A DNA stretch of 64,000 nucleotides from Microbulbifer sp. SAOS-129_SWC (GTDB taxonomy: Bacteria > Pseudomonadota > Gammaproteobacteria > Pseudomonadales > Cellvibrionaceae), in NCBI RefSeq assembly GCF_039696035.1, contig NZ_CP155567.1:1253501-1317500 (forward strand), given 5' to 3'. Position 1 is the first letter of the stretch; every line of letters begins with the position of its first letter. Below the pieces are notes generated by a model. That model did no database searches, was not told the origin of the DNA, and worked only from the letters and a program-made list of their open reading frames with translations. The position numbers and the translations under genes were made by a program. Below, piece by piece: positions 2,667 to 57,423 of the stretch.

Positions 2667-2774
2667 CCCTGCTGCCGGTAGCGGGTTGCGGGACACGCCG
2701 TGAATCCATCCCTGGAGGCTTGGCGGCCGGGTCCCTCCGGCCGACAGTCCCGCAACCCGCTACCGGCATCAGGG
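2667..2774 (+). repeat. Long covarying hairpin element, copy A
   Basis: Outer arms at 2673-2694 and 2747-2768 are perfectly complementary over 22 bp (left arm begins TGCCGGTAGCGG). Outside them a C(2672)/T(2769) mismatch is followed by CCCTG/CAGGG. Inside are the core GTGAATCCATCCCTG (2700-2714) and an inner hairpin CGGCCGG-6 nt-CCGGCCG (2724-2743). The element lies between tesA and ttcA. Copies at 47368 and 57299 have the same order of parts with different, but again self-complementary, arms. Confidence 0.85.
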
Positions 2775-2833
2775 CCTTCGCATTACAGTTCGAAGCGCCT
2801 TTTCGACCCGGAACCCGTAGTCAGAGAAACACC

Positions 2834-3760
2834 ATGTCCGAACTGGAAAACCGCCGCGAGCGGCTGGAATTCAACAAGCTGCAGAAGCGCCTGCGCCGCA
2901 ACGTGGGCCGCGCCATCGCCGACTTCAATATGATTGAGGAGGGCGACAAGATCATGGTGTGCCTGTCCGGCGGCAAGGATTCCTATGCGATGCTGGATAT
3001 CCTGCTCAATCTGCAGCGCACGGCACCGGTGCGGTTCGAGCTGGTGGCGGTCAACATGGACCAGAAGCAGCCGGGGTTCCCCGAGCATGTGCTGCCGGAG
3101 TACCTGCAGTCCCTGGGGGTGCCCTATCACATTGTGGAGAAGGACACTTACTCGGTGGTGAAGGAGGTGGTGCCGGAGGGCAAGACTACTTGCGGCCTCT
3201 GCTCGCGCCTGCGCCGCGGCACCCTGTACGGCTTTGCCGAGGAAATCGGGGCGACCAAGGTGGCGCTGGGACACCACAAGGACGATATCGTCGAGACGTT
3301 GTTCCTGAACATGTTCTACGGCGGCCGCCTGAAGGCGATGCCGCCGAAGCTGCGCGCGGACGACGGCCGCAATATCGTGATCCGCCCGCTGGCTTACTGC
3401 CGCGAGCAGGACATCGAGCAGTTTGCGGCGATCAAGCAGTTCCCGATCATTCCGTGCAACCTGTGCGGCAGCCAGGAAAACCTGCAGCGCCAGGCGATCA
3501 AGCAGATGTTGCGGGACTGGGACCAGAAATTCCCCGGGCGCAGCGAGAATATTTTCGCTGCGCTGACCCGGGTGTCGCCGTCACAACTGGCGGATCGCGA
3601 CCTGTACGATTTCGAGAGCCTGGAGCTGGACCGCACTACACCAGCGGCTGGCGCGCGGGGCGAGCATGCAATTCAGCGGCAGGTGCACTCCTGGATTCCC
3701 GATGGGGAAGAGGAGTCGGTTGCAGAGCCGCCCCGCTATATCGAGGCGCTGAATCTGTAG
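2834..3760 (+). CDS. ttcA: tRNA 2-thiocytidine(32) synthetase TtcA
   Basis: A 308-residue PP-loop ATPase that thiolates C32 of some tRNAs. It has the PP-loop SGGKDS at residues 45-50 and two CxxC motifs, CGLC (Cys120, Cys123) and CNLC (Cys208, Cys211), which hold the iron-sulphur cluster in this family. The start at 2834 gives the usual N-terminus ([20 protein letters not shown]). An open frame continues back to 2660, but it would run through hairpin element A and has no family similarity. The last 125 bp are overlapped on the other strand by the gene at 3636-4238. Confidence 0.97.
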
Positions 3761-4238
3761 GATCGGCGGCGCTGACCAGGCGTGCGTAGCTGCACTCGAA
3801 GTCGTGCGCGCGGGCGCTGGGGCCGTGGTGGAAGTGCTGGTGCCACAGACGCGCCATGTTGTCCACCTCGGCGCCGACGCGGCTGACCCCGGCGGCGCGG
3901 TAGATCAGCCAGGCGATGGCGGTGGCATAGCGCAGGTTGGTGGTCAGTTCACTGTGGGGGTGGTCGAGGAAGTCGCGCTGGCTGGCGAGGCCGCGAACCT
4001 TGGAGGCGAGCGCCGGGTGGTCGATCAGGTAGTTGTCCCAGATTTCCCGGTGGGTGTGTGGCTGTATCTGGTAGATGCCCAGCCCGTGGCGGCGGCCCTG
4101 CTTGAGGTGAAACCCGAGCTGGGATTCCTGCGCGGCGGTGCCGAGCAACAGGTTTTCCATTTCCGGTGTCCAGGCCCGCAAGTGTTTGAGGGTGGGACGA
4201 ATCACCAGTTGTCTCAGTTCGTCCAGACAAATGCCCAT
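3636..4238 (-). CDS. Lysozyme-like / SLT-type domain protein
   Basis: A 200-residue protein of no named family that I can fix. Residues 28-60 read [16 protein letters not shown], then [16 protein letters not shown]. The pattern of AxxES followed by G-L-G-x-x-Q-I is that of lysozyme-like transglycosylase folds, with the Glu in the catalytic place. There is no signal peptide, so it may be phage-derived or a cytoplasmic or structural protein. The recognisable domain ends near residue 158. The last 40 or so residues are Pro/Ala/Arg-rich and are simply the antisense of the ttcA 3' end. They may be a run-on after loss of an earlier stop. Confidence 0.65.
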
Positions 4239-4433
4239 AGTGTTGTCAGTTTTTCCGTAACTTTTCCCAATATGTAGTTTGTGGATTGAGCTGCTGCCAG
4301 TGAATAGGTAGATTTACGCGCAATAAACACGAAAATTGGCTGTCGCGCCTATTCCCCGGGGCTTTCTTGCACTAAAAAAGCCTATGACGCCGGGCGCTGC
4401 GGCGGTCGCAATGTTCTCTGTTGGGGATTTTCC

Positions 4434-5900
4434 ATGTCTGGACAATGGCTCGTCGCGCTGACGTTTGTCGGCTACCTGGCTTTTATTCTGGTGATCGGTG
4501 TCTACGCTTACCAGCGCACCAAGGATGCCAGTGATTATTTTCTCGGTGGCCGTTCGCTGCCGCCGGCGGTGGCGGCGCTGTCGGCCGGCGCCTCGGATAT
4601 GAGCGGCTGGCTGCTGCTGGGCCTGCCCGGTGCGGCCTACGCGGTGGGGCTTTCCTCCGGCTGGATCGCGATCGGGCTGTTCTCCGGCATTGTGCTCAGC
4701 TGGACCACCATGGCGCGGCGCTTGCGCGTGTACTCCTATGAACTGGATGACGCGCTGACGCTGCCGGCCTATCTGCACCGGCGCTTCAACCTGGGGCATC
4801 CCTACCTGCGCACCCTGTGCGGTATCTTTATCCTGCTGTTTTTCCTGTTCTATGTGGCCTCGGGCCTGATTGCCGGGGGCAAGCTGTTCGAGTCGGTGTT
4901 CGGCTGGGATTACCGCATTGCGGTGGTGGTCGGTGCGCTGGCGGTGATTTCCTACACGCTGTTTGGCGGTTTCCTGGCGGTGTCCTGGACCGATGTGTTC
5001 CAGGGCCTGTTGATGAGCCTGGCGCTGGTGATTGTGCCGGCGGTGGTCATCAGCGACGAGGGTGGCCTGGCGGCCAGCTGGCACCAGCTGCAGCAGCGCG
5101 CGCCGGAGCTGACCCACTGGATGAGCGACAATACCGGGCAGGCGCTGGGCGTGGCGGCGATCCTGAGTTCGCTGGCCTGGGGGCTGGGGTATTTTGGCCA
5201 GCCGCACATTCTGGCCCGCTTCAAGGCGGTGCGCCGCCCGGAGGATGTGCCGACGGCGGCGCTGGTGGCGGCGGTGTGGTCGCTGGCCGGTTTTCTCGGT
5301 GCGATGGCGGTGGGCCTGTTCGGGCGCCTGGAGCTGAATCAGGTGCTGCCGGATGGCGAGCGTATCTTTATCGAGCTGGTGGGGGCGCTGTTCCACCCGC
5401 TGGTGGCAGGGGTGCTGCTGGCGGCGATCCTGTCGGCGATCATGAGCACCGCGGACTCCCAGCTGCTGGTTAGCTCGGCGGCGCTGGCGGAAGATATCTA
5501 CCACGTCTGGGTGGGCCGCGAGACCAGCCCCGAGGCGATGGTCAAGGTGGGGCGCTGGGCGGTGGTGGGCCTGTCGCTGATCGCCGTGTGGGTGGCACTG
5601 GATCCGGACTCCAAGGTGCTCGACGTGGTGGCCTATGCGTGGGCAGGGCTTGGCGCGGCATTCGGGCCAGCGATCCTGATCAGCCTGTACTGGTCGCGCA
5701 TGACCGGTGCCGGCGCCATCGCCGGGGTGCTGGTGGGCGGTGTTACGGTACTGATCTGGAGGGAGCTATCCGGGGGCATCTTCGATATCTACGAGTTGCT
5801 ACCGGGCTTCGTACTCTCCGCAGCTGCTATCGTGATAGTAAGCGCAGTGACGAATTGCCCCGTGGCCGTCTCATCGCGCCATCGCGAGTTGATGGGGTGA
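4434..5900 (+). CDS. putP: Sodium/proline symporter PutP
   Basis: A 488-residue sodium:solute symporter (SSS family) with about 13 membrane helices. The start MSGQWLVALTFVGYLAFILV, the YFLGGRSLPP segment after helix 1 and the ASDMSGWLLLGLPG segment are hallmarks of PutP. It imports proline with Na+ across the inner membrane, as a nutrient or osmoprotectant. It stands alone, with no putA or proline regulator nearby. The 195-bp upstream gap is A/T-richer than its surroundings and presumably holds the promoter. Confidence 0.93.
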   Translation: MSGQWLVALTFVGYLAFILVIGVYAYQRTKDASDYFLGGRSLPPAVAALSAGASDMSGWLLLGLPGAAYAVGLSSGWIAIGLFSGIVLSWTTMARRLRVYSYELDDALTLPAYLHRRFNLGHPYLRTLCGIFILLFFLFYVASGLIAGGKLFESVFGWDYRIAVVVGALAVISYTLFGGFLAVSWTDVFQGLLMSLALVIVPAVVISDEGGLAASWHQLQQRAPELTHWMSDNTGQALGVAAILSSLAWGLGYFGQPHILARFKAVRRPEDVPTAALVAAVWSLAGFLGAMAVGLFGRLELNQVLPDGERIFIELVGALFHPLVAGVLLAAILSAIMSTADSQLLVSSAALAEDIYHVWVGRETSPEAMVKVGRWAVVGLSLIAVWVALDPDSKVLDVVAYAWAGLGAAFGPAILISLYWSRMTGAGAIAGVLVGGVTVLIWRELSGGIFDIYELLPGFVLSAAAIVIVSAVTNCPVAVSSRHRELMG

Positions 5901-6096
5901 GGCCGGTGCCGCGCGGCGCGCGGGCGCTCTCGAGCATGGGTTGTGCAGGACGTTGCAGTTCCTGCGCGTGAGTGCCGCCGCATGAATCTCTTCCGCACAG
6001 GCTCCGGCCGGCAGACCGGGGGGCGGCGTTACTGACGCGAGGCGAAACGGATTTCCATCCGCATCCATGCATGCCCAAAGCGGTTGGAGAAACTGA

Positions 6097-6612
6097 GTGA
6101 TCGAAGTCCATGTCGGAGATATCACTCGATTAAAAGTCGATGTTATCGTCAATGCCGCCAACAGCCACCTGCAGGGCGGTGGTGGTGTAGACGGGACCAT
6201 TCACCGCGCGGCGGGGCCCCGCCTGTTGGAGGCTTGCCGCCAGATTGGCGGCTGCCCCGCCGGGGAAGTGCGCGCGACCCCGGCTTTTGATATTCCCGTC
6301 AAGCGTATCTACCACACCGTCGGCCCGGTCTGGCGCGGCGGCAATCTCGGCGAACCGGAACTGCTGGCGAGTTGTTACCGCCAGTGCCTGACGTTGGCGC
6401 GGCGGGAGAACATGCAGTCCATCGCCTTCCCGGCAATCAGTTGTGGTGTCTACGACTATCCGCCGGAGCAGGCGGTGGAAATCGCCGTGGACCAGGTGCA
6501 GGCGCACCTGGAGCGCGATGCGGTACCGCGGCTGGTGATTTTCTGCTGTTTCGACGAGGCGATGGCGGAGCTATACCGGTTGCAGCTGGATACCGCCTAT
6601 GTGCGCCGCTGA
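6097..6612 (+). CDS. Macrodomain protein, O-acetyl-ADP-ribose deacetylase type
   Basis: A 171-residue single macrodomain. It starts with GTG (TTGGAGA is 7 bases upstream). Motifs: [27 protein letters not shown] (residues about 14-40) and [12 protein letters not shown], the two ADP-ribose-binding loops of the MacroD/YmdB class. Such enzymes remove O-acetyl-ADP-ribose or ADP-ribose from proteins. E. coli YmdB also restrains RNase III, which cannot be assumed here. The next gene begins about 110 bp downstream on the same strand. Confidence 0.92.
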
Positions 6613-6723
6613 GCGGCGCCGCCCGTGAGCGGCTTGTCCCCGTCGCAGTGACCGGATCGGTCATTGCGGCGTTTGCGCTGCTCGCCGATGATTGGCGCAG
6701 ATAATAAAAACGAGGGTGAGAAA

Positions 6724-7188
6724 ATGCGCAGTGCCGAACAGTGGTTTGCCGAGTATGGCGAGAGCCACCAGAACCCAGTCAACAAGGCCATTCACTGGAT
6801 TGCGGTGCCGGTCATTTACGCCACCGTGGTGGGGCTGTTGTGGTCGATTCCACAGCCGGCGTTTATGGCGTCGATCCCGTGGCTGAACTGGGCGGTGGTG
6901 GCGCTGGTGCCGACGCTGCTGTTCTATCTGGTGATGTCGTTCCCGCTGGCGCTGGGCATGGCTGCGGCCAGCGTCGTATGCCTGTGGGGCTGGAGCGGCT
7001 TTGCGCGGCTGGGGTACTCGGTGTGGATGGCCTCGCTGGTGCTGTTCGTGATCATGTGGATCTTCCAGTTCATCGGCCACCGGATCGAGGGTAAGAAACC
7101 CTCTTTCTTCAAGGACCTGCAATTCCTGTTGATCGGCCCGGCGTGGGTGATCGGGTTTGTCTATCGCAAGTTTGATATCAAATACTGA
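6724..7188 (+). CDS. Mpo1-like (DUF962/YGL010w) membrane protein
   Basis: A 154-residue protein with four hydrophobic segments. The N-terminal ESHQNPVNKAIHWIAVPV carries the H-x2-N-x3-H pattern typical of the Mpo1/DUF962 family. Its yeast member is an Fe(II)-dependent dioxygenase acting on 2-hydroxy fatty acids. I use the ATG at 6724, which has GAGGGTGAG upstream; an in-frame start at 6664 adds a segment not typical of the family. In bacteria the substrate is not settled. It may share a transcript with the macrodomain gene. Confidence 0.85.
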   Translation: MRSAEQWFAEYGESHQNPVNKAIHWIAVPVIYATVVGLLWSIPQPAFMASIPWLNWAVVALVPTLLFYLVMSFPLALGMAAASVVCLWGWSGFARLGYSVWMASLVLFVIMWIFQFIGHRIEGKKPSFFKDLQFLLIGPAWVIGFVYRKFDIKY

Positions 7189-7213
7189 CGGCGCCGGCTC
7201 AATCGCGCTGTGA

Positions 7214-7232
7214 GAGCGGCCAGCGGCCGCTC
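7214..7232. terminator. Hairpin between convergent genes
   Basis: GAGCGGCC-AGC-GGCCGCTC, an 8-bp perfect stem with a 3-nt loop, between the convergent Mpo1-like and Lrp genes. No T tract, so its action as a terminator is only inferred. Confidence 0.4.
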
Positions 7233-7253
7233 CGTCGGTCAGCCTGTATGTGA

Positions 7254-7739
7254 TCAGCGGTTGTAGTGCACCGGTACTTCCAGCGTCTCTTTCACCTGCT
7301 CCATGACCACATAACTGGTGCACTCCTGTACTTCCGGCAGTGTCAGCAGGGTCTCGCCGTAGAAGCGGCGATAGGCATTCATATCTGCCACCCGCGCCTT
7401 GATCAGGTAGTCAAAATTCCCCGATACCAGATAGCATTCCTGCACCTCCGGCAGCGCCGCCACGGCGTTGCGGAACTCCTCGAACGCGTCCTGAGCCGAG
7501 CGGTTCAGGCGGATCTGCACGAACACCACCAGCGCCGCGTCGAGAAACTCCGGGTTGATCAGCGCCGTATAGCCCTGGATTACGCCATCTCCCTCCAGGC
7601 GCCGCACCCGCTCGATACAGGGGGTGGCGGTCAGCCCCACCTCGCGCGCGAGCTCGGCATAGCTGGTGCGGCCATTCTTTTGCAGTACCCGCAGGATGTT
7701 GCGGTCAATGGTGCTCAGTTCATTGGCGCGTCTGCGCAT
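7254..7739 (-). CDS. Lrp/AsnC family transcriptional regulator
   Basis: A 161-residue regulator with an N-terminal winged HTH (STIDRNILRVLQKNGRTSYAEL, then the recognition region TPCIERVRRLE) and a C-terminal RAM effector-binding domain. I start it at 7739, where GGGAACACC precedes the ATG; the longer frame from 7826 runs into the ald promoter. It is divergent from alanine dehydrogenase with 194 bp between the starts. That layout suggests it senses alanine or another amino acid and controls ald and itself. Confidence 0.93.
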   Translation of the reverse strand: MRRRANELSTIDRNILRVLQKNGRTSYAELAREVGLTATPCIERVRRLEGDGVIQGYTALINPEFLDAALVVFVQIRLNRSAQDAFEEFRNAVAALPEVQECYLVSGNFDYLIKARVADMNAYRRFYGETLLTLPEVQECTSYVVMEQVKETLEVPVHYNR

Positions 7740-7933
7740 GGTGTTCCCTCGGTTGAATCGATCAATTAACGGGCATTCTGGTGCCTCATCCAGTGGATTC
7801 CACTGGTTGGGGGTGAAAAATAACATAAATTCCCTCGGTGGGCGGCTCTATACTGGGTGAAATCGCAGAAGCAGGGTAACTGCACCCATCACCGGATAAG
7901 TGGCCTGAGTGCCAACAACGAGGAGTACAAGAA
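7740..7933. promoter_or_regulatory. Shared lrp-type/ald control region
   Basis: A 194-bp divergent intergenic region. It contains an A/T-rich tract (7814-7832) of the kind Lrp proteins prefer, and a -10-like TATACT at 7849-7854 on the ald side. No convincing -35 is visible, as would fit an activator-dependent promoter. ald has AACGAGGAGTACAAGA in front of its ATG. Confidence 0.45.
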
Positions 7934-9079
7934 ATGTTGATAGGTGTCCCGAAAGAGATCAAAAACCACGAGTACCGTATCGGCCTGACGCCGGCCAGTG
8001 TTCGTGAGCTGATCGGTCACGGTCACGAGGTGATCGTGCAGAAAGACGGTGGTTCCGCCATCGGCTTTACCGACGAAATGTACGAGCAGGCAGGTGCCAA
8101 GATCATCGATTCTCCGGAAGAGATCTTCGCTACCGCCGACATGATCGTCAAGGTCAAGGAGCCGCAGCCGCACGAGTGCGAGATGCTGCGCCCGGGCCAA
8201 CTGCTGTACACCTACCTGCACCTGGCGCCCGATCCCAAGCAGACCGAGCTGCTGGTCAAGTCCGGCGCTACCTGTATCGCCTATGAAACCGTAACCGATC
8301 GCTCCGGCGCGTTGCCGCTGCTGGCACCGATGTCTGAAGTGGCCGGCCGTATGTCCGTACAGTGCGGCGCCCACCACCTGGAGAAAGCCCAGGGTGGTCT
8401 CGGCGTACTGCTGGGCGGCGTGCCCGGTGTGGCCCCGGCCAAGGTACTGGTGATCGGTGGCGGTGTCGTGGGTACCAACGCGGCCAAAATGGCCCTGGGT
8501 ATGGGCGCCGACGTCACTATTCTGGATCGCTCCCTGCCGCGTCTGCGTCAGCTGGACGATATCTTCGGCGGCGCTGTGCGCACCGAATACTCCACCAACG
8601 ACGCTATTGAGAAACACGCGCTGGAAGCGGACCTGGTAATCGGTGCGGTACTGATTCCGGGTGCGGCGGCGCCGAAGCTGCTGACCCGCGACCATATCAG
8701 TCGCATGAAGAAGGGCGCTGTGGTTGTGGACGTGGCCATCGACCAGGGCGGTTGCTTCGAAACCTCCAAGGCTACCACCCACCAGGAGCCGACTTACGTC
8801 GTCGACGGCGTGGTGCACTACTGCGTGGCCAACATGCCCGGCGGTGTTGCACGCACCTCCACCATGGCCCTGAACAACGCCACCCTGCCGTTTGCTGTGT
8901 CCCTGGCCAACAAGGGCGCCAAGCAAGCGCTGCTGGACGACGCCAACCTGCTGGAAGGCCTGAACGTTCACGCCGGTATGGTGACCTACAAGGCCGTTGC
9001 CGATGTACTGGGCTACGAATACGTGGATCCGAAACTGGCGCTGCAGAAGTCTGCCGTAGAGGAAGGCGCTGCCGCGTAA
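7934..9079 (+). CDS. ald: Alanine dehydrogenase
   Basis: A 381-residue NAD-dependent L-alanine dehydrogenase that interconverts alanine with pyruvate and ammonia. Arg15, Lys75 and His96 are at the exact substrate-binding places of the family, and the Rossmann motif is VLVIGGGVVGTNAAKMA. The family is about 371 residues long; the extra ten are an Ala/Glu-rich C-terminal tail (VEEGAAA). Codon use is noticeably more biased than in the neighbours, as in a highly expressed gene. It is divergent from an Lrp-family gene, its likely regulator. Confidence 0.97.
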   Translation: MLIGVPKEIKNHEYRIGLTPASVRELIGHGHEVIVQKDGGSAIGFTDEMYEQAGAKIIDSPEEIFATADMIVKVKEPQPHECEMLRPGQLLYTYLHLAPDPKQTELLVKSGATCIAYETVTDRSGALPLLAPMSEVAGRMSVQCGAHHLEKAQGGLGVLLGGVPGVAPAKVLVIGGGVVGTNAAKMALGMGADVTILDRSLPRLRQLDDIFGGAVRTEYSTNDAIEKHALEADLVIGAVLIPGAAAPKLLTRDHISRMKKGAVVVDVAIDQGGCFETSKATTHQEPTYVVDGVVHYCVANMPGGVARTSTMALNNATLPFAVSLANKGAKQALLDDANLLEGLNVHAGMVTYKAVADVLGYEYVDPKLALQKSAVEEGAAA

Positions 9080-9091
9080 CGAGATGGAAAC

Positions 9092-9113
9092 TGCGGCCGC
9101 TGGCGCGGCCGCA
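9092..9113 (+). terminator. Hairpin just after ald
   Basis: TGCGGCCGC-TGGC-GCGGCCGCA, a 9-bp perfect stem 12 bp after the ald stop. There is no T tract; it may stabilise the mRNA end, with the real terminator at 9241. Confidence 0.45.
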
Positions 9114-9240
9114 TTGAGAAATTTACTGCGACAGAACACGGGAAGTAACGCGCTTGTCGAATGTTTCAGTCTTTCTCCCCAGGGGCGCGCCCCCGCGCCC
9201 CGCTCTGTGAGACCCGGTGACCTCTCTGTCACCGTTCCGA

Positions 9241-9268
9241 CCGCGCAATTGCGCGGTTTTTTTATTTT
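9241..9268 (+). terminator. Rho-independent terminator of ald
   Basis: A self-complementary CCGCGCAATTGCGCGG followed by TTTTTTTATTTT. It lies about 160 bp after the ald stop and is the only strong terminator there. Confidence 0.85.
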
Positions 9269-9335
9269 CGGGGATTGGTTTCTGTTGCCGAGGGCTCCGA
9301 ACTGAATATTTCTCCGCCGTCTTCCCTGTATAAAG

Positions 9336-9421
9336 GGCTTTATCGCTTTGAAAGTTTTCTGTGCCTTAAGCGCGCTGTCGTGAATCTGTGGAAAAGAAAA
9401 CCGCGCGCGATCTGTAGGGGC
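9336..9421 (+). repeat. 85-bp repeat unit, copy 1
   Basis: Begins GGCTTTATCGCTTTGAAAG, contains GTGCCTTAAGCGCGC and CTGTGGAAAAGAAA, and ends CGATCTGTAGGGGCG, running straight into palindrome P1. It aligns along its length with the units at 9448 and 13775. It lies in the 486-bp gap between ald and rsmE, which otherwise holds only the ald terminators. Confidence 0.7.
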
Positions 9422-9442
9422 GGACACAGGGTCCGCCCCTAC
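9414..9442 (+). repeat. Palindromic repeat P1
   Basis: GTAGGGGCGGAC-ACAGG-GTCCGCCCCTAC, a perfect 12-bp stem with a 5-nt loop. One of six related palindromes in the window (also 13745, 13858, 37822, 57243, 57754). Confidence 0.8.
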
Positions 9443-9447
9443 GGAAC

Positions 9448-9530
9448 CGGGCTTTATCGATTTGACAGAGTCCTGTGCCTCAAGCGCTCGGTAGTGAACC
9501 TGTGCAAAAGAAATCTACGCGTGCCCGGTA
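9448..9530 (+). repeat. 85-bp repeat unit, copy 2
   Basis: Follows P1 through CTACGGAACC. It reads GGCTTTATCGATTTGACAG, then GTGCCTCAAGCGCTCG, then CTGTGCAAAAGAAA. It matches copy 1 over most of its length, so the two form an imperfect tandem repeat with a palindrome between them. The far end has drifted. Confidence 0.7.
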
Positions 9531-9565
9531 ACGGGAGTTGTGGATTGTTTCGGGTGACAGGGGCG

Positions 9566-10282
9566 TTAGCGCCCGGGAAACAGCCGTCCAAGTAGCACTG
9601 GTAGTGCCGTTTCCACCCGCAGGATTCGCGGACCCAGATGTACTGCGTCGAAGCCCGTCTCCTGCAGCTTTTCCACTTCGTAGGGAATAAAACCGCCCTC
9701 GGGGCCAATCGCCAGCGTGGTGGGGGAGGTGATATCCACAGGGCAGGGGGTGTCGGTGACCGGGTGGGCGACAAGTTTCCGTGATTCGGCGGCGATTGCC
9801 GGTAATTCGTCTTCGACAAACGGTTTGAAGCGCTTGCGTAGTTCTATCTGCGGCATGCGCGTATCCACGGCCTGTTCCAGGCCCAGCAGGCATTGCTCGC
9901 GCAGTTTGTCCCCATCCAGCCACGGGGTCTGCCAGTAAGACTTCTCCACCCGGTAGGCGTTGATCAGGTACAGCTTTTTGACCCCCAATGCGGTGGCGTG
10001 CTGGATGGTGCGCTTGAGCATTTTCGGCCGCGGCAGCGCCAGGATCAGGGCCAGCGGCAGGCCGGGCGGCGGGTCGCGGTGGAACTCGACCTGCAGTTCT
10101 GCAAAGTCGTCGTTCAGTTCACAGATGCGGCCGCTGCCGATCTGCCCGTCGAGCAGGCCGATGCGCAGGCTGTCGCCGGCGCCGGCGCGGTGGACCTGCT
10201 GGATATGCTGCAGGCGGCGCCCATCCAGGCGCGCGCGGTCCGGCGCGATGAAGTCAGCGGTTTCGAGGAGAACGAGATTCAA
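9566..10282 (-). CDS. rsmE: 16S rRNA (uracil-1498-N3) methyltransferase RsmE
   Basis: A 238-residue SPOUT methyltransferase that modifies U1498 of 16S rRNA. The N-terminal PUA-like part has GRRLQHIQQVHRAGAGDSLRIG. The C-terminal knot has LAIGPEGGFIPYEVEKLQ and HLGPRILRVETALPVLLG, the SAM-binding motifs of the family. The only start that gives the usual N-terminus (MNLVLLETADFIAP) is a TTG at 10282; no good ribosome site precedes it, so expression may be low. It stands alone, with the repeat cluster downstream of it. Confidence 0.95.
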   Translation of the reverse strand: MNLVLLETADFIAPDRARLDGRRLQHIQQVHRAGAGDSLRIGLLDGQIGSGRICELNDDFAELQVEFHRDPPPGLPLALILALPRPKMLKRTIQHATALGVKKLYLINAYRVEKSYWQTPWLDGDKLREQCLLGLEQAVDTRMPQIELRKRFKPFVEDELPAIAAESRKLVAHPVTDTPCPVDITSPTTLAIGPEGGFIPYEVEKLQETGFDAVHLGPRILRVETALPVLLGRLFPGR

Positions 10283-10315
10283 GCGGAGGCGCTCATATGG
10301 TCGTGAGTGGCGGGT

Positions 10316-11329: not shown

Positions 11330-11447
<118 letters not shown>

Positions 11448-47367: not shown

Positions 47368-47534
47368 GCAGGCCCAAAGAGCCTTCCGGGAATTCATTAC
47401 TGTGCAGGGGCGGCCGGTGGCCGCCACCGCGGCTCCGGACGGGCCCTGCCGCCAGTGAGTATTCGATCGGCAACCGCTGCGGTAATGGTTGCCCGAATGT
47501 TCACCAGCGGCAGGGCCTTGCTCTTTGTGCCTGC
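47368..47534 (+). repeat. Long covarying hairpin element, copy C
   Basis: Outer arms: GCAGGC (47368-47373), C/T mismatch (47374/47528), CAAAGAGC (47375-47382) pairing with GCTCTTTG (47520-47527) and GCCTGC (47529-47534). The core-like GGGAATTCATTACTG is at 47388-47402. The inner hairpin (47442-47517) is large and regular: GGCCCTGCCGC, CA, GTGA, GT, ATTCG, bulge, GGCAACC, loop, GGTTGCC, CGAAT, GT, TCAC, CA, GCGGCAGGGCC. It lies between mreB and mreC. Confidence 0.75.
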
Positions 47535-49072: not shown

Positions 49073-49115
49073 GGTAAAGCCGCGTAAAGGGCGATCATTT
49101 TTCGAACGATGCGGC

Positions 49116-49121: not shown

Positions 49122-49153
49122 CGGTCGCTGATCCATCAACAATAAGCAGTACA

Positions 49154-49777
49154 GTGCCAAATACCCCTGCCCACAGCCGCCTCCTGCTTGCCTCCGGCTC
49201 GCCGCGCCGCGCGGAATTGCTGGCGCAGATTGGCGTGCCTTTCGCGCGGGTCACGCCGGACGTGGCCGAACAGCGCCGCAGCGGTGAATCCGCCCGGGAC
49301 TATATTGGGCGCCTGGCGCGCGACAAAGCCGCGGCGGGCCGCGCCATCAGCGCCGCCGGCGACGATACCGGGCTATGGGTGCTGGGTGCCGACACCCTGG
49401 TGCTGGCCGGCGACGAAGTGCTGGAAAAACCGGGCGATTTCGCCGCATTTGCGGCGATGATGCAGCTTTTATCCGGTCGCGAGCACCGGGTGCTGACCGC
49501 TGTGTGTCTGAATGGTGCCGAGCGCCAGTTCCTTGAACTGGTGGAAACCCGCGTGCGCTTTCGCCCTCTCAATGAACAGCTGATCGAGACGTACTGGCAT
49601 ACCGGTGAGCCCGCCGACAAGGCCGGTGGCTACGGCATTCAGGGGCTGGGCGCGGCGCTGGTGGAATCCATCCGTGGCAGCTATAGCAATGTGGTGGGGC
49701 TGCCGCTGGAAACGCTGGTGCCGATGTTGGAACAGGCCGGCATCCCCTACTGGGCCGGCGCAGGGAGTGTCGCGTGA
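49154..49777 (+). CDS. Maf/YhdE nucleoside triphosphate pyrophosphatase
   Basis: A 207-residue Maf protein. It begins with [20 protein letters not shown], and has [15 protein letters not shown], then [18 protein letters not shown] and [31 protein letters not shown], the full set of Maf motifs. YhdE types hydrolyse dTTP and UTP. It starts with GTG at 49154, and its TGA overlaps the GTG of rng by four bases. Its place between mreD and rng is conserved in gammaproteobacteria. Confidence 0.95.
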
Positions 49778-51264
49778 GCGAAGAATTACTGATCAATGTG
49801 GCTCCGATGGAGACCCGTGTGGCGCTGGTGGAAAACGGCGTTTTGCAGGAAGTCTATCTGGAGCGCAGCGCGCGCCGCGGCATTGTCGGCAATATCTACA
49901 AGGGTAAGGTGGTACGTGTGCTGCCGGGGATGCAGGCGGCGTTTGTGGATATCGGCCTGGAGCGGGCCGGGTTCATCCACGCCTCTGACATAGCGCCGCT
50001 CGACGATGAGGGTATGGAGTCGCGCGAACCGGTGGAAGTGGCGGATATCCGCGCGCTGGTGCGCGAGGGCCAGTCGCTGGTGGTGCAGGTGGTCAAGGAC
50101 CCGATCAGCAGCAAGGGCGCGCGCCTGACCACACACCTGTCGGTCTCCGCGCGTTATCTGGTGTACATGCCGCAGACCCGTCATATCGGTATCTCCAACC
50201 GCATCGAGGACGAGGGCGAGCGCGAGCGCCTGCGCGAGCTGGTCGAGGGCGCTTCGGCCAAACTGGCACAGGAGGGTCACAGCGGCGATGGCGGCTTTAT
50301 CCTGCGCACCGTCGCCGAGGGGGTCAGCGAGGAGGAGCTGTTGCGGGATATTCCGTTCCTCTACAAGTTGTGGGGCGAACTGGAAGAGCGCATCAAGTCG
50401 CGCCCGCTGCCGTCGGTGATCTATGAGGATCTGCCGCTGTTTATGCGCGCGCTGCGCGACCTGGCGCGGCCGCACATGGAAAAAATCCGTATCGATTCCC
50501 GCGAGGCCCACGGTCGCGCGGCGGAGTTTGCCGGCAAATATGCGCCGGAAATTGCCGGCCGCCTGGAGCATTATCCCGGCGAGCGGCCGCTGTTCGATAT
50601 CTACGGTGTCGAAGAGGAAATCCACAAGGCGCTGCACAACAAGGTTACGCTCAAGTCCGGCGGCTACCTGATCGTCGAGCAAACCGAGGCGATGAGTACC
50701 ATCGACGTCAACACCGGGGCGTTCGTCGGCCACCGCAACCTCGAAGAGACCATTTTCAAGACCAATCTCGAAGCGGCCACCGCCATTGCGCGCCAGCTGC
50801 GCCTGCGCAACCTGGGTGGCATCATCATTATCGATTTCATCGATATGAAAGACCCCGAGCACCAGCGCCAGGTCCTGCGTACGCTGGAGAAGACGCTGGA
50901 ACGGGACCACGCGAAGACCAGTATTACCGGTGTGTCCGAGCTGGGCCTGGTGGAGATGACACGCAAACGCACACGCGAATCCCTCGGCCAGTTCCTGTGT
51001 GAATCCTGCCCGGTGTGCGGCGGGCGCGGCTCGCTGAAGAGCGCCGAGACGGTCTGTTACGAGATCTTCCGCGAGATCATCCGCGAGGCGCGGGCCTACG
51101 ACAGTGACAAGATCATGGTGTTGGCCAGCCAGATGGTGATCGATCTGCTACTCGACGAAGAGTCGGCCAATGTGGCGGATCTGGAGGAGTTTATCGACCG
51201 GCCTATCCAGTTCCAGGTAGAGCCGATTTACAACCAGGAGCAATACGACATTGTTCTGGTGTGA
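49774..51264 (+). CDS. rng: Ribonuclease G
   Basis: A 496-residue endoribonuclease of the RNase E/G family that matures 16S rRNA 5' ends and decays some mRNAs. The S1 domain is [23 protein letters not shown], near residues 38-60. The catalytic [11 protein letters not shown] is near residue 350, and the zinc-link CPVCGGRG follows. It lacks the long C-terminal region of RNase E. It starts with GTG overlapping the maf stop. Confidence 0.97.
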
Positions 51265-51336
51265 GATTTTCCGTCCATCGGTGTCGCGCCGCCGCGCACC
51301 GCGACCGCTCGCGCATCGCGTGCCGGGAGGTGAGCG

Positions 51337-54300
51337 GTGATCGGCACACTGCGCTGGCTGGCGCGCAAGTTCTGGCTGCTGGTGATATCGCTGGTTATCG
51401 GTCTGGCAATCCTGGTGCAGACCGGCCGCATTCTGTCACCGCAGGTGGAGAACTATCGCCCGCAGATCAGCCACTGGCTGTCGGCGCGCCTCGGCGTGCC
51501 GGTGCAGATGGACGGCCTGTCGCTGCGCTGGCAGGCGCTGGAAGTGGCGCTGCAGCTGGATGGCCTGCGCCTGGGGGCACAGGGCCAGGTCAAGATGGGC
51601 TACGGCCTGTTTCACCTCGACTTGCTGGCGAGCCTGTGGAACCGCGAGCTGGTGTGGAAAAACCTGCAGGTGCGGGACTTTTCCGCCGAGCTCAGCCGTA
51701 CCGCCGACGGTGGTTGGCATATCGAGGGTTTCCCCGCCGGCGATTTGCCGGCGCCGACGCACAAGCCCGGCGGCGCCCGGCGCCTGGGTGATCCCGCGCG
51801 TATCTTCCAGCTGGGGCCCAAGGTGCAAGTGCGCAATGCCAGTATCACCCTGCGCCTGCCGGACGGGCCTGCCGCCCAGGTCCAGCTGCCGCAGATACTG
51901 CTGGAGAACAGCGGCGGATTTCACCGCCTCACCGGCCGCGCCTTCCTGACCCGCGCGGACCAGGATGCTGAGCTGGACGGCGGGGCCGAGACACTGCGGC
52001 TGGTGCTCGAAGGCCGCGGCAATCCCCGCGACAAGCGGCATTTCTCCGTCGACGGTTATGTCCAGTTGAACGAGCTGCTGCTCGATGCCGATATTGTCTC
52101 GCTGTTGCAGCAGATGCTGCCGCTGCCACAGCGCTATCACTGGAGCGGCCCCAAACTGGCACGCGGTAAGTTGTGGCTGCAGAGCGACAGCCAGCAGGGC
52201 TACCGCCTGCGCGGACGCCTCAATCTGGCCCGCGCCGACAGTGCCGCCGCGGTTCCGGGTGCCGGAGCTAACAAAAGCGCCGCCACCAAACAGGGCACCG
52301 CCGCGAAGCAAAATGCCGCGCCCCAGCAGGCCGCCGTGGCGAAACAGCCCGATGCTGCATCGAAGCAGGCGCAGATCATGGCGCCGCTGCAGTCTCTGTC
52401 CGGCGAAGTCTCCGGCCACTGGCAACCGGGCAGCCAGTGGCAACTCGCGCTGCAGAATATCCAGCTGGGCTGGCGCGATCTGCCGATGCCGCCGCTCAAC
52501 CTGCAGGCCAGCAGCAGTGCGGCCGATGGATTGCAGCTGACGGTGGACCGGGTCGATGTGGGTGCCTGGGGCAGGATCCTGCAACGGATGGCGCTGCTCA
52601 AGGGGCCGGCCGCGGAGTGGTTGCAGGCGTTGCAGCCCAGCGGCGCCCTGCAACGGGTGCAGTTTTCCCGCGATCCGGGTGGCCAGATCGTATTGCGCGC
52701 CAACCTGCGTGACTTCAGCGCCGCCGCCTACCGCGGCGCCCCCGCCGTACATGCGCTGGATGGCTATCTGGAAGTGCGCGGCGCCAACGGCCGCGTAGAG
52801 CTGGACGGCGGCCCCGGCTTCAGCATGCAGTTCCCGAAACTCTACCCGCACGCCTTCACCTTCGAGCGCGCCAACGGCACGGTGGCCTGGTCGGTCGACA
52901 AGGCGAACAACTCGGTACAGATCTACTCGGGGCCGCTGCAACTGGACGGCAAGCTGGGCGATATCAACGGCCAGTTCCTGCTGCAGTTGCCGTTCCACCC
53001 GCACACCCGCGCCGCGGACTTTACCCTGTCGCTGGGGCTGCGCGATGCGCCGCTGACAGCGCAGCAGCAGCTGGTGCCGGAAACGGTCAGTGACAATCTG
53101 CGCGACTGGCTCAACCGTGCGGTGGGGGCACACAACCCGGGACGGGTACAGCGCGCGGCGTTTATCTACCGCGGTTCCAATTATCACGAAGGCGACAATC
53201 CGCACTTGCAGGCCCTGGGCGAGCATCCGGACCGCCAGACCGTGCAGGTAGCCGCGGACATCGACAACGGCAGCCTGGACTATGCGCCCGGCTGGCCGGC
53301 GGCGCGTGCCGTGGCCGCACGCCTGCGTGTCGACGACCGCGACGTGCAGGTGGATGCCCACAGCGCGCGCCTGTGGCAGATTGACGCGCGCAATATTGAG
53401 GTGGCAGTGACTCCCAGCCCGGTGGGGCAGGGCTCGCTACTGGGCGTACGCGCGCAGTTGAGCGGGCCGGCGGCGGACGGGCTCCGGCTGCTGCGGGATT
53501 CACCGCTGCGCAAGCAGTTGGGCAGCGCATTCGACGACTGGAAGCTGGACGGTCGCATGGCGGGCAGCCTGACCCTGTCGCAACCGCTCGGCGGTGCCGA
53601 GGTGGCGCCGCGGCAGAGCGTGCAAGTGCAGCTGCAGGGTGGAAAACTGCAGCTGCAGAACCTGCGCCTGGCGGTGGACCATCTCGACGGTGCGGTGCAC
53701 TTCGACAGCGACAGCGGCCTCGCCGGCACCAGTCTTACCGGCGACCTCTGGGGTCGCCGCCTGAGAGCGCATATCCAGCATCTGGGCGAGGGCGAGCTAC
53801 GCGACACCCAGGTGGTGATCGACGGCAGCAGCAGTATTGCCGCGGTAAAGGCCTGGAGCGCCCGCCCGGAGCTGGCCTGGCTCGATGGGGATTTCGATTA
53901 CCGCGCCCTGGTGACCATCCCGGCACGGGCCAAGCACAAGCCCTACGCGGCGGTATTTGAACTCAGCTCGGACCTCGCCGGTGTCGCCGTTGACCTGCCG
54001 GCGCCGTTCGGCAAGGCGCGGGACGCGCGCACCGCGTATGTGCTGCGCGCCCCGATTGGCGAGCAGGGTACGCTTTTCCATATGAATTACGGCGAACACC
54101 TGCAGGGGCAGTTCTGGCAAGTGAACGGCCGGGTGGAGCGCGCCGCTATCGGCCTCAACGCCGAGGCGGTGCTGCCGGATCGGCGCGGACTGGCGGTAAC
54201 CGGTGATCTGTCCCAGGTAGACCTGCACCGCTGGCTGGAGCGGTTACAGGTATTCAGTGACGATACCGCAACCGACACGACCTCAACTGCCGCCACTTCA

Positions 54301-55686
54301 GGCGGAACCGCCAGCGATGCGACCTCTGGATCCTCCGGCGGCGATGCGCACGCAGCCGACACCGCTGCGGCCGAGCCGCTGCCGATCACCCTCGATCTGA
54401 GCACCGACCGGCTACAGCTGGGCGCGGCGGACATAGACCATATTCACGTCAACGGCCGCGGCCTCGGCGCGGACTGGCAGTTGCAGTTCGACAGCGCCAT
54501 GGCCTCCGGTGAGCTGAGTGGCGTGGTCAATGCGGAGACGCCGCTGCAGTTGAACCTGAGCCATCTGCAGCTACCGGCACCGAAGGCGGGCGAAACCGAG
54601 CCGGACGACGACAAGACGGAGCAGGGCGACGACAAGGCGAAAGCCGACCCCTGGGCCGGATTCGATTTCACCGGCCTGCCGCGGGTGGATTTCAGTACGG
54701 ACAGCCTGCGCATCGGCGAGGAGGATTTTGGCCGCTGGTCTTTCCGGATGCGTCCGTCCGCCAAGCGCCTGGTGATCAGCGATATCCGCGGCGCCGCTCG
54801 CGGTGTTCGCGTCGAAGGGCGCGGTGAGGGCGAGCACAAGCTGGGGGCGCAACTGATGTGGCTGCGCAATCCCGACGGCAGCGAATCGACCCAGTTCATC
54901 GGCCGCTTGACCGCGGCCAACCTGGCGGATGTGCAGCGCGCCTGGGGTCAGGAGCCGGCTATCGAGAGCGAGCGCGCCGGTTTTGATACGGCGCTGCGCT
55001 GGGATGGCTCACCGGCCCGGGTCAGCGCCGATGGCCTGTCTGGCGAGTTGAAGATTGACATTCGCAAGGGGCGTTTCCTGCGCGCCAAAGACACCGCCGG
55101 CTCGGCGTTGCTGCGGTTGCTGTCGCTGTTCAATTTCGATACCTGGGCGCGGCGCCTGCGTCTGGATTTCTCCGACTTGTACCAGAGCGGCATGGCCTTC
55201 GACCGGGTGCGCGGCGAGGTGTACTTCGAGGGCGATGGCAAGCTGCTGATCGCGGTGCCGATCCAGGTGGAGGGACCAACCAGCGAGTTGCAGATGGCGG
55301 GGCGGGTCAACCTCAAGCGCGAGGATCTGAACCTGACCCTGGTGGCGACGCTGCCGGTGGGCAACAACCTGGCGCTGATCGCGGCGCTGGCCGGCGGTCT
55401 GCCCGCCGCGGCCGGGGTCTACCTGATCAGCAAGGCGTTCAAGAAGCAGGTCAACAAGATGGCCAGCGTCAGTTACCGCATCAGCGGCGATTGGGCAGAA
55501 CCTCAAGTGCGCTTCGACAAGCTGTTCGATGACGAGGGCGCCAGTCGCGAGGGTAACGCCGCCGAGGCGGAGAGCCGCGCGCCGCCGGCCGGCAGTGACC
55601 CGCCGGGCACCGTGTCCGGGCGCCAGCCTGAACCCCGGCAGCTGCGCGAGTCGGATAGCGGCGGGGCGCAAGCGCCGGCAATCTGA
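51337..55686 (+). CDS. yhdP: YhdP-family AsmA-like protein
   Basis: A 1449-residue envelope protein. A single N-terminal membrane helix (residues about 8-30) leads into a very long beta-rich body (DUF3971 near the start, AsmA-like C-terminus). YhdP, TamB and YdbH are thought to carry phospholipids between the membranes. GTG start with GGGAGG 7 bp upstream. Low-complexity linkers are visible: Lys/Gln/Ala-rich near 305-345, Thr/Ser/Ala-rich near 975-1015, and Asp/Lys-rich near 1085-1105. A Ser/Pro/Gly tail follows the body. Fits its usual place after rng. Confidence 0.92.
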   Translation: MIGTLRWLARKFWLLVISLVIGLAILVQTGRILSPQVENYRPQISHWLSARLGVPVQMDGLSLRWQALEVALQLDGLRLGAQGQVKMGYGLFHLDLLASLWNRELVWKNLQVRDFSAELSRTADGGWHIEGFPAGDLPAPTHKPGGARRLGDPARIFQLGPKVQVRNASITLRLPDGPAAQVQLPQILLENSGGFHRLTGRAFLTRADQDAELDGGAETLRLVLEGRGNPRDKRHFSVDGYVQLNELLLDADIVSLLQQMLPLPQRYHWSGPKLARGKLWLQSDSQQGYRLRGRLNLARADSAAAVPGAGANKSAATKQGTAAKQNAAPQQAAVAKQPDAASKQAQIMAPLQSLSGEVSGHWQPGSQWQLALQNIQLGWRDLPMPPLNLQASSSAADGLQLTVDRVDVGAWGRILQRMALLKGPAAEWLQALQPSGALQRVQFSRDPGGQIVLRANLRDFSAAAYRGAPAVHALDGYLEVRGANGRVELDGGPGFSMQFPKLYPHAFTFERANGTVAWSVDKANNSVQIYSGPLQLDGKLGDINGQFLLQLPFHPHTRAADFTLSLGLRDAPLTAQQQLVPETVSDNLRDWLNRAVGAHNPGRVQRAAFIYRGSNYHEGDNPHLQALGEHPDRQTVQVAADIDNGSLDYAPGWPAARAVAARLRVDDRDVQVDAHSARLWQIDARNIEVAVTPSPVGQGSLLGVRAQLSGPAADGLRLLRDSPLRKQLGSAFDDWKLDGRMAGSLTLSQPLGGAEVAPRQSVQVQLQGGKLQLQNLRLAVDHLDGAVHFDSDSGLAGTSLTGDLWGRRLRAHIQHLGEGELRDTQVVIDGSSSIAAVKAWSARPELAWLDGDFDYRALVTIPARAKHKPYAAVFELSSDLAGVAVDLPAPFGKARDARTAYVLRAPIGEQGTLFHMNYGEHLQGQFWQVNGRVERAAIGLNAEAVLPDRRGLAVTGDLSQVDLHRWLERLQVFSDDTATDTTSTAATSGGTASDATSGSSGGDAHAADTAAAEPLPITLDLSTDRLQLGAADIDHIHVNGRGLGADWQLQFDSAMASGELSGVVNAETPLQLNLSHLQLPAPKAGETEPDDDKTEQGDDKAKADPWAGFDFTGLPRVDFSTDSLRIGEEDFGRWSFRMRPSAKRLVISDIRGAARGVRVEGRGEGEHKLGAQLMWLRNPDGSESTQFIGRLTAANLADVQRAWGQEPAIESERAGFDTALRWDGSPARVSADGLSGELKIDIRKGRFLRAKDTAGSALLRLLSLFNFDTWARRLRLDFSDLYQSGMAFDRVRGEVYFEGDGKLLIAVPIQVEGPTSELQMAGRVNLKREDLNLTLVATLPVGNNLALIAALAGGLPAAAGVYLISKAFKKQVNKMASVSYRISGDWAEPQVRFDKLFDDEGASREGNAAEAESRAPPAGSDPPGTVSGRQPEPRQLRESDSGGAQAPAI

Positions 55687-55754
55687 GCCATGCCCCTCGC
55701 GGTTGCGGCGTTGCCAACCCTATAACGGGAGGGAAGCTGCGGCGGGAGAGGAAG

Positions 55755-56297
55755 ATGAACAGGACAATGAACAATACCGTGAAATTGGTCGCCTTGGCGT
55801 TGGCGCTGCTGCTGGCACCTGCCGGTCAGGCCCAGGACAGCGCCGACAGTACCATGACAGTGGCGCAGGCGAAGGCCAATATCGCCGCCGGAACCAACCT
55901 GGCTGCGATCCCCCGCTCGGTGTGGCGCCAGCTGCTGAGCCCGGCGCAATACCGCATCCTGTGGGAAAAGGGCACCGAGCGGGCCTACAGCGGCAAGCTG
56001 CTGCACAACAAGGCGGAAGGCACCTATGTGACGGCGGGTTGCCGCCTGCCGGTGTTCAGCTCGGCCCAGAAATACGATTCCCACACCGGCTGGCCCAGTT
56101 TCTGGGACGTGGCCTACCGACAGAATATCGTGCTGAAACCGGACAACAGCCTCGGGATGCACCGCACCGAGGTACTGTCGGCCTGTGGTGAGCACCTGGG
56201 CCACGTGTTCAAAGATGGACCTGCCCCGACCGGTTTGCGCTACTGCCTGAACTCGCTGGCGCTGGATTTTGTTCCGGCGGTTGCAAAAACCGAATAA
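55755..56297 (+). CDS. msrB: Exported peptide-methionine (R)-S-oxide reductase MsrB
   Basis: A 180-residue MsrB with an N-terminal signal peptide (ending APAGQAQD), so it would repair oxidised methionines outside the cytoplasm. GWPSFWDV and the catalytic RYCLNSLALDF are intact. E. coli-type MsrB binds zinc with two CxxC pairs. Here the first pair is TAGC (the first Cys is Thr) and the second is LSAC (the first Cys is Leu), so two of four ligands are gone. It may be a zinc-free form. Confidence 0.92.
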   Translation: MNRTMNNTVKLVALALALLLAPAGQAQDSADSTMTVAQAKANIAAGTNLAAIPRSVWRQLLSPAQYRILWEKGTERAYSGKLLHNKAEGTYVTAGCRLPVFSSAQKYDSHTGWPSFWDVAYRQNIVLKPDNSLGMHRTEVLSACGEHLGHVFKDGPAPTGLRYCLNSLALDFVPAVAKTE

Positions 56298-56377
56298 TTA
56301 TTCGATATTGTTGCCTGCGGCCTGTGCGAAGGGCCGCAGAGCAGAGGTACAACAATAATCAACAGAGGTCCGTGCCG

Positions 56378-57217
56378 ATGTCCGAGGTGGCCACAGTGAC
56401 GGGAGCCCCCGTCAAGCGATATACCCTGTTCCGGGTCTTCAAATACGCTGTCTACCTGTTACTTACTTGCAACGTATACGCCTTTTTCACTGAGAATCAT
56501 GCCGCTGCTGGCGCGGTCTTTGCCCACGGCCTGCAGTTCGGCAAGCTGATCGAAGCCTACAACGACAGCATCGATACCCTCTCCTGGGTACTGTTGCTGC
56601 TGGTATTCGAGCTCGAGACCTTCGTGCTGTCGGACGATAAGATTCGTGGCTGGGTCAAATGGAGCCTGAATGCGGTCTCCGCGTTCTGTTACCTGTTTAT
56701 CCTTTATTCCTTCTACGGCTACGTGGCCGAAATGGCCTCGCTGACGCATCTGCTGCCGCTGCAGCAGTCGGCCTGTGACTTGGCCAGTCAGGGCGGTTGG
56801 CTGCTGGCGGTGGGTCAGGATGACTATGTGCCGCTGACGGCCAATAATTGCGCGGCGCTGGCGGATGCACACGTGCTGCGCCAGGGCGGTATTCAGGTGC
56901 TGGCAACGGTGGATACCTGGAATGAGATCAAGTGGCTGGCGGCCACGGATGTGGTCAATGCTGCGGCCTGGGTGCTGGTGGTGGTGATTCTGGCCTTCGA
57001 TGTGTGGCTGCAACTGCGCAACGAGCTGTCGGACTCGATGATGCGCTACTCGCAGGTGATCAAGGTGCTGCTGTACTCCACCCTGATGCTGTGTGCCATC
57101 TACTGGGGCATTAACGGCAGCTTCCTGGATTTCTGGGATGCCTTCCTGTGGCTGGTGGCCTTCTTCTTTATCGAGATGAACCTGTTTGAATGGCAGGCGG
57201 AGACCAGCGCTGAGTAG
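56378..57217 (+). CDS. Membrane protein of unknown function
   Basis: A 279-residue protein that I do not recognise. Six or so hydrophobic segments: YAVYLLLTCNVYAFF, DTLSWVLLLLVFELETFVL, SLNAVSAFCYLFILYSFYGY, then AAWVLVVVILAFDVWLQL, VIKVLLYSTLMLCAIYWGI and DAFLWLVAFFFIEMNLFEW. Between helices 3 and 4 is a segment of about 70 residues with two Cys (SACDLASQGGW and ANNCAAL), likely a disulphide-bonded periplasmic loop. The ATG at 56378 has AGAGG 9 bp upstream. The acidic LLVFELETF helix is unusual. Confidence 0.78.
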   Translation: MSEVATVTGAPVKRYTLFRVFKYAVYLLLTCNVYAFFTENHAAAGAVFAHGLQFGKLIEAYNDSIDTLSWVLLLLVFELETFVLSDDKIRGWVKWSLNAVSAFCYLFILYSFYGYVAEMASLTHLLPLQQSACDLASQGGWLLAVGQDDYVPLTANNCAALADAHVLRQGGIQVLATVDTWNEIKWLAATDVVNAAAWVLVVVILAFDVWLQLRNELSDSMMRYSQVIKVLLYSTLMLCAIYWGINGSFLDFWDAFLWLVAFFFIEMNLFEWQAETSAE

Positions 57218-57242
57218 TCATCTCGGGTAATTTCTCCATGTG

Positions 57243-57263
57243 GGGCGGACCTTGTGTTCGCCC
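57243..57263 (-). repeat. Palindromic repeat P5
   Basis: GGGCGGAC-CTTGT-GTTCGCCC, one mismatch. It opens the 581-bp gap (57218-57798), which is filled by repeats and holds no gene. P6 closes it in the opposite orientation. Confidence 0.75.
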
Positions 57264-57280
57264 TTTTGCTTTCTGGGCAT

Positions 57281-57289
57281 TGTGGATAA
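57281..57289 (-). other. DnaA-box-like sequence near P5
   Basis: TGTGGATAA, the exact complement of TTATCCACA, 17 bp after palindrome P5. The same word lies 15 bp after P4. Confidence 0.3.
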
Positions 57290-57298
57290 CCCGGTGGC

Positions 57299-57423
57299 GG
57301 CGCTGCTACCGATAGCTGTTTGCCAGACACGCGCTAGGCGCCCCCCAGTGAATACATTCCTGTACGCTCTAATTGGCATCCATGCCTCATAAGGTCTGGC
57401 AAACAGCTATCGGTATCAGCGCC
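57299..57423 (+). repeat. Long covarying hairpin element, copy B
   Basis: Outer arms at 57307-57328 and 57394-57415 are perfectly complementary over 22 bp (left arm begins TACCGATAGCTG). Outside them C(57306)/T(57416) is again mismatched, followed by GGCGCTG/CAGCGCC. Inside are the core GTGAATACATTCCTG (57348-57362) and the inner hairpin GGCAT-CC-ATGCC (57375-57386). Compared with copy A the arm differs at six places, all compensated. Confidence 0.85.

Follow-up and report, generated by a model that had tools for sequence, protein, structure and literature searches.

The prevailing view is that one to a few dedicated sponge RNAs set the activity of CsrA. The CsrA/RsmA-binding RNAs CsrB/CsrC, RsmX/Y/Z and, in Alteromonas, Aln1a-c carry ANGGA in hairpin loops and have two hairpins, according to the accessible text of PMC4347634 and, for Aln1, of PMC5864184. 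Systematic evolution of ligands by exponential enrichment (SELEX) has yielded the in-vitro-selected CsrA consensus RUACARGGAUGU, in which ACA and GGA are invariant and GGA is preferentially placed in a hairpin loop (available sections of PMC4347634; also of PMC3856055). A second group, the ERIC and BIME/REP repeats, comprises intergenic imperfect palindromes that occur singly or as inverted pairs and with patchy copy number, and the accessible part of PMC2267715 reports that Yersinia ERIC acts by folding as RNA hairpins. Here, we describe a long hairpin element first recognized in a stretch of 64,000 nucleotides from Microbulbifer sp. SAOS-129_SWC (contig NZ_CP155567.1, positions 1,253,501 to 1,317,500; termed the window, within genome G000). 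It combines an intergenic stem-loop repeat, a known kind, with a tip that resembles those of Csr-type RNAs, also a known kind; this combination was not found in the open-access literature searched.

The likeness to each described system is partial. In some copies, hairpin 1 of the element fits the SELEX consensus, going by the sections available from PMC4347634. Csr small RNAs, however, are encoded at one to a few dedicated loci; the element is dispersed through the genome, in as many as hundreds of copies, and has a long stem of hypervariable sequence. Compared with ERIC and BIME, the two-hairpin tip with GGA loops is the element's own, and the 30-nt core has no match in plasmids, phages or the E. 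coli genome collection (E limits 0.01, 0.01 and 0.1), the ERIC consensus itself not having been aligned. The arms are far more variable than those of ERIC, and the element is much longer than REP. REP sequences with RAYT (Y1_Tnp) and the ends of IS200/IS605 are likewise hairpins dispersed between genes. Integron attC sites resemble the element in being palindromes with variable arms and conserved structure; neither attC-type boxes nor gene cassettes were seen by eye in the copies read, no tool-based search having been made. In Rfam 15, the window at the gathering threshold gave only the signal recognition particle RNA, and five copy-bearing loci at E<=1 gave seven matches, all below gathering. 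No description of the family was found in the open-access literature, where three 12-mers of the core, looked for among 5.39 million open papers, matched a single one, on human cancer; the accessible part of the paper on Alteromonas Csr-type small RNAs (PMC5864184) does not describe it, and the available text of a systematic survey of stem-loop repeats contains neither CsrA nor RsmA. As far as open-access literature shows, the family is likely to be new.

Judged from its sequence and predicted folds, the element is probably a structured-RNA repeat, dispersed through the genome, whose paired CsrA-type sites make it a candidate dock for one CsrA/RsmA dimer; we hold this with modest confidence. 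An initial annotation of the window, which named three copies (A, B and C), had listed a structured RNA among its options, and this option is favoured by covariation, strand asymmetry and loops. In the proposed mechanism, the transcript of each copy, made from the strand opposite to the one read in that annotation, would fold into a long stem ending in a tight three-way junction with two short hairpins. Both tip loops would typically be ANGGAN, their GGAs lying about 23 nt apart, and the two loops together would dock one CsrA/RsmA dimer. Copies in untranslated regions of mRNAs or in read-through transcripts may bind CsrA; all copies of a genome would then form a distributed CsrA sink, while each copy could serve as a local CsrA-responsive tag on neighbouring transcripts.

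The family is real and large. A covariance model was built from 17 copies of the same genome, including A and B, whose own recovery is by construction. At E<=1 it matches G000 (4.63 Mb, one contig) 110 times, some matches being reverse-strand echoes; 66 of the 110 were taken as copies after echoes and weak 95-nt matches were dropped by hand, and the weakest of these 66, at 45-47 bits, are doubtful. The initial annotation had named two outcomes that would refute the family, a lack of further copies and arms without compensating changes, and neither was observed. Model counts within Microbulbifer, each from at most 117 scored candidates and with echoes included, lie between 0 and 5 in G003, G004, G007, G009, G010 and G011 and exceed 100 in G001, G002, G016, G017 and G018. 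Of 276 sampled gammaproteobacterial genomes, 28 contain a 20-nt core with no more than a single mismatch, against none of the 276 for a reversed control pattern. These carriers hold from 1 to 325 core matches (325 in G247); eleven have a single match, counted by the core alone, and six have at least 28. In a sample of the phylum, the core is present in 12 of 249 genomes, all within the class, and in 0 of 160 outside it (rows counted by hand). A scan of named genomes gave at least 120 loci with the core, among them L054 from Methylotuvimicrobium buryatense 5G; among the matches listed, the carriers are species that we take to be gammaproteobacteria or are labelled only Proteobacteria. At L409 (G458:C1:93900-95900), the GGA element stands five times head-to-tail with a period of 227-229 bp.

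The fold is supported by covariation among 36 copies, aligned by their reverse strands under a stated structure. Standard pairs make up 93.1% of cells, compared with 71.3% after shuffling and at most 44.7% when the structure is slid, and both sides have changed at 34 of 44 pairs. The covariation score is 0.573, against 0.167 in shuffles (0 of 500 reach it) and at most 0.113 in slid controls; the relatedness of the copies is lost in shuffles but retained in the slid control, which scores far lower. Covarying arms and a fold under selection, both proposed in the initial annotation, are supported, and the arm changes are compensated. Pairing is tightest in the outer helix (98.8% of cells, with double changes at 22 of 27 pairs). 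For hairpin 2 the figure is 77.6%, with three pairs of its middle stem mostly unpaired, in part because of register differences in the alignment. The long stem has a median length of 28 bp and a hypervariable sequence; the arm alignment dropped 17 of 189 cores that had no scoring arm alignment. An extended same-genus alignment leaves out 64 of 101 copies and was picked by a 5'-end pattern, so the conservation of the 5' end in it is a product of selection of the rows.

Mismatches within the stem show which strand is structured. An A.C mismatch on the annotated strand is a G.U pair on the opposite strand, whereas complementarity of the DNA alone would make A.C and G.T equally common on a strand. 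The asymmetry was counted in 125 external copies, drawn from the named-genome loci and including other Microbulbifer: the annotated strand carries 146 A.C and 33 G.T mismatches, with about 17 of each of the other eight types. By copy, A.C is in excess in 69 and G.T in 12, with 44 ties (p 7e-11). The 36 copies from G000 agree, with 35 A.C against 6 G.T and, by copy, 22 against 2 with 12 ties. Folding is also more stable for the reverse strand in 104 of the 125 external copies, the opposite holding for 20, and in 30 of the 36, the opposite holding for 6. As the mismatch asymmetry shows, the structured strand is the reverse of the one chosen in the initial annotation. These data bear on a neutral origin, in which template switching during replication copies one arm of a palindromic repeat onto the other, and compensated changes require no selection on the fold. 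The nearly perfect arms would suit such a process, as would remnants in G017 that, read by eye, resemble cut-out hairpins (hairpin deletions), and a sister element with the same arms and another tip (see below). Correction of this sort is strand-symmetric and predicts equal numbers of A.C and G.T, not 146 and 33, and it leaves unexplained the fixed loop of hairpin 2 on variable stems at a fixed spacing. The neutral account is already strained by the strand asymmetry, and we consider it very unlikely.

The tip loops match the recognition motif of CsrA/RsmA, as far as sequence can tell. On the RNA strand, the commonest form of hairpin 1 is UACA-K-GGA-UGUA, and its stem varies while the loop is kept (UACA/UGUA, UCCA/UGGA and CCCA/UGGG, with GUUCA/UGAAC at the ttcA site of G015 and G018). 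Hairpin 2 has a variable stem, mostly closed by C-G, and the same kind of loop: the hexaloop is ANGGAN in 77 of 91 scorable external copies, over 28 different four-pair inner stems, and hairpin 2 played no part in selecting these copies. It could not be scored in the remaining 34 of the 125, where short stems with CAGGGAUG-type loops are seen in several copies and long nested tips in others. Across the same 880 kb, ANGGAN makes up 11 of 946 hexaloop readings taken outside the elements, although background stems had six Watson-Crick pairs and hairpin 2 only four with G-T allowed; several of the six longer-stemmed background ANGGAN loops look like relatives. The spacing from GGA to GGA is 23 nt in 78 of 97 copies and 22-24 nt in 93 of 97, counted where the second hairpin has a TCC loop on the annotated strand (28 of the 125 give no value). 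The exact 12-mer RUACARGGAUGU is found in hairpin 1 of 17 of the 66 own copies and is present in 36 of the 125 external ones, the latter having been chosen with an overlapping pattern, and at least two ANGGA motifs are present in 52 of the 66. The long copies at L052, L066, L109, L120, L148 and L395 carry a nested second module, the loops of which (GCCATGGATGGC, TTTTGCAGGAGCAAAA) contain GGA when read from the opposite strand; this module may represent a further family of CsrA-type hairpin repeats. ANGGA hairpins at close spacing also occur outside the family, at L115 4791 and L121 6018-6113.

The copies behave like BIME-type repeats in occurring both singly and in inverted pairs. In G000, ten pairs of copies stand inverted, their model matches separated by 42-65 bp. 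In G016, one member of a pair has been copied elsewhere together with the spacer and a fragment of its partner, and an inverted pair is flipped as a unit between G016 and G017, together with no less than about 45 bp of flanking sequence at either end (L276 19313-19651 against L284 9407-9725). When G016 and G017 are compared for element boundaries and target sites, the flanks are too diverged to define them. At the tesA-ttcA site, where copy A lies, the element is present in the same orientation but with very different arms in G000, G002, G012, G015 and G018; G017 has a full element and G016 a decayed copy, and a model match adjoins ttcA in G001. No element can be seen in the stretches read from G003, G004, G005, G006, G010, G011 and G014. 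Because site and orientation are shared while the arms differ among relatives, this copy probably has a long history in part of the genus, with arms that mutation, or conversion from other copies, has rewritten without loss of complementarity. The sister element shares the arms and ends but has the tip TTGTTCAACAGCCT..TCGGCAATCGTTTCTCAA without GGA loops. It has 20 matches in G000, six of them in a tandem array with a period of 123-124 bp, and none in 18 other genomes searched; a similar copy stands at site 7 of G016, a genome outside that search. The arms and ends thus resemble a chassis that carries the tip as exchangeable cargo.

Such movement could also come from a non-autonomous DNA hairpin element akin to REP/IS200 or attC, one strand of which extrudes as single-stranded DNA, so that a recombinase or transposase acting in trans reads the two tip hairpins and copies the element. 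G-T wobble is well tolerated in single-stranded DNA, so the strand bias fits, and so do the spread of model matches from 0 to 114 within one genus (among candidates scored, echoes included), the ten closely spaced inverted pairs, the copy moved with its spacer and partner fragment, and the flipped pair. We nevertheless think it an unlikely account, for no shared gene was found. Y1_Tnp has no match at E<=1e-5 in G002, G005 and G012, genomes listed as 100% complete that hold 102, 60 and 48 element matches among the candidates scored, while this genome has three Y1_Tnp matches; RAYT/Y1_Tnp was therefore rejected as a required mobilizer, and the REP/RAYT or IS200/IS605 option of the initial annotation finds no support. 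Two widely spaced +/- copies examined for an autonomous version (303163/305993 and 2919596/2923421) enclose host-like open reading frames and no transposase. Both hairpin stems vary while ANGGAN stays, and a variable stem with a fixed loop is not how a transposase usually reads a hairpin. The lack of a plasmid, phage or E. coli match to the core also tells against this account.

Gene context was assessed for 89 copies within the genus using gene calls that are rough and missed tesA. The flanking genes are co-directional for 60 copies, convergent for 24 and divergent for 5; gaps of at least 150 bp in the same loci are divergent in 32 of 166 cases and convergent in 24 of 166. Promoter regions are thus avoided, and no strong orientation rule is seen. 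This weak orientation and the avoidance of promoters suit a CsrA sink or read-through tag better than a dedicated 5'-leader switch. The avoidance of divergent gaps and the share of convergent ones also speak for a CsrA-independent element of mRNA ends or stability (BIME/ERIC-like or terminator-like), whose long stem blocks exonucleases or polymerase and whose loops matter otherwise. Such an element has no need of two ANGGAN loops, and no obvious T-run follows the stem in the copies read, although no terminator scan was run; we give this explanation little credence. Returning to the CsrA dock, a further and more tentative possibility is that the element is an RNA repeat, selfish or domesticated, through which docking sites for CsrA are multiplied. 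High-copy genomes, with tens to more than 300 sites, might then carry a chromosome-embedded sink that resets the Csr network and tags mRNAs, while the stem evolves almost freely. Should the docking of CsrA prove true, the element would constitute an unrecognized layer of Csr control and a second, expandable source of CsrA binding, with tens to hundreds of paired sites per genome. It could explain differences between species in Csr regulation, and the element would be a rare bacterial dispersed repeat with an identifiable RNA-binding partner. Tractable hosts are available for direct tests, including the methanotroph with 325 core matches.

Several observations weigh against the CsrA reading. 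Two ANGGA motifs are lacking in 14 of the 66 own copies, several own copies do not form both tip hairpins in the minimum-energy fold, and the loop of hairpin 1 has drifted in copy B to AGGAAU. The pairing of the arms, at 98.8% standard pairs with few G-U, exceeds that of most RNAs and suggests correction at the DNA level as well; the arms are also not tied to the GGA tip, since the sister element has the same arms with another one. Strand bias in mutation could account for part of the mismatch asymmetry, but not for the loops. The orientation bias is weak: among 89 copies, the RNA strand has the sense of the upstream gene in 61 and that of the downstream gene in 42, and in copy A it runs antisense to the genes on either side. 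Finally, csrA does not discriminate, as it is matched in 26 of the 28 carriers and in 241 of the 276 genomes of the class sample; among carriers, G203 has no match. G000 and G018 also gave no csrA match, which would count strongly against the CsrA reading, but absence from G000 cannot be claimed, since the sequence analysed does not span the region where the gene is expected. One Microbulbifer clade (G003, G004, G006, G009, G010 and G014) has about 4-18 csrA-like matches per genome, and nine relatives have one each (hand count). An association between the numbers of csrA paralogues and of elements in the genus (Mann-Whitney p 0.025) was not used, as the six multi-csrA genomes are one clade and represent one event.

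Features of the element and its sister (window coordinates unless a contig is named)
Feature	Position	Strand	Description
Copy A, whole element	2652..2782	RNA strand minus	covariance model match 133.7 bits, core on +
Copy A outer arm	2667..2694	no strand	inverted repeat, 28 nt, 96% (inverted-repeat list of the window)
Copy A hairpin 1	2705..2716	minus	RNA strand UCCAGGGAUGGA, loop AGGGAU (sequence, fold)
Copy A hairpin 2	2724..2743	minus	stem CGGCCG, loop (G)AGGGAC(C) (sequence, fold)
Copy A returning arm	2747..2774	no strand	inverted repeat, partner of the outer arm
Copy B, whole element	57286..57429	RNA strand minus	covariance model match 114.0 bits, core on +
Copy B outer arm	57296..57328	no strand	inverted repeat, 33 nt, 94% (inverted-repeat list of the window)
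14-nt insert in copy B	57332..57345		also in some other copies, e.g. L020; 2/17 alignment rows
Copy B hairpin 1	57353..57364	minus	RNA strand UACAGGAAUGUA; GGA loop AGGAAU departs from ANGGAN
Copy B hairpin 2	57375..57386	minus	RNA strand GGCAUGGAUGCC, loop AUGGAU (sequence)
Copy B returning arm	57394..57426	no strand	inverted repeat, partner of the outer arm
Sister element	G000:C1:1792934-1793577 (L406) and 14 other places

The inverted repeats of copies A and B stand first among the 25 listed for the window. The minus strand of A folds at -85.0 kcal/mol and that of B at -80.1 kcal/mol, the minimum-energy fold of B pairing its 14-nt insert with the tip. ANGGAN loops number two in A and one in B, and the exact 12-mer RUACARGGAUGU has no match in the window, so neither copy has it. 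The 22-bp arms described in the initial annotation, differing between A and B at positions 2, 6, 11, 13, 18 and 19 with every change compensated, are read directly from the sequence, and the C opposite T at the joint of the outer stem is seen in both, corresponding to A opposite G on the RNA strand. Copy C (47368), by contrast, is not retained as a member: it goes unmatched by the model both genome-wide (E<=1) and within the window (E<=0.01), and it folds as a different imperfect hairpin without the two-hairpin tip. Copy A sits between genes at 1944-2609 (+) and 2834-3760 (+) that, from the translations of their open reading frames, we take to be tesA and ttcA. The imperfect hairpin after mreB, at 47442-47517, is part of putative copy C. 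A separate GGGCGAACACAAGGTTCGCCC-type repeat occurs at 13744-13772/13851-13879 and near 57239-57268, and it lies near several elements in the genome.

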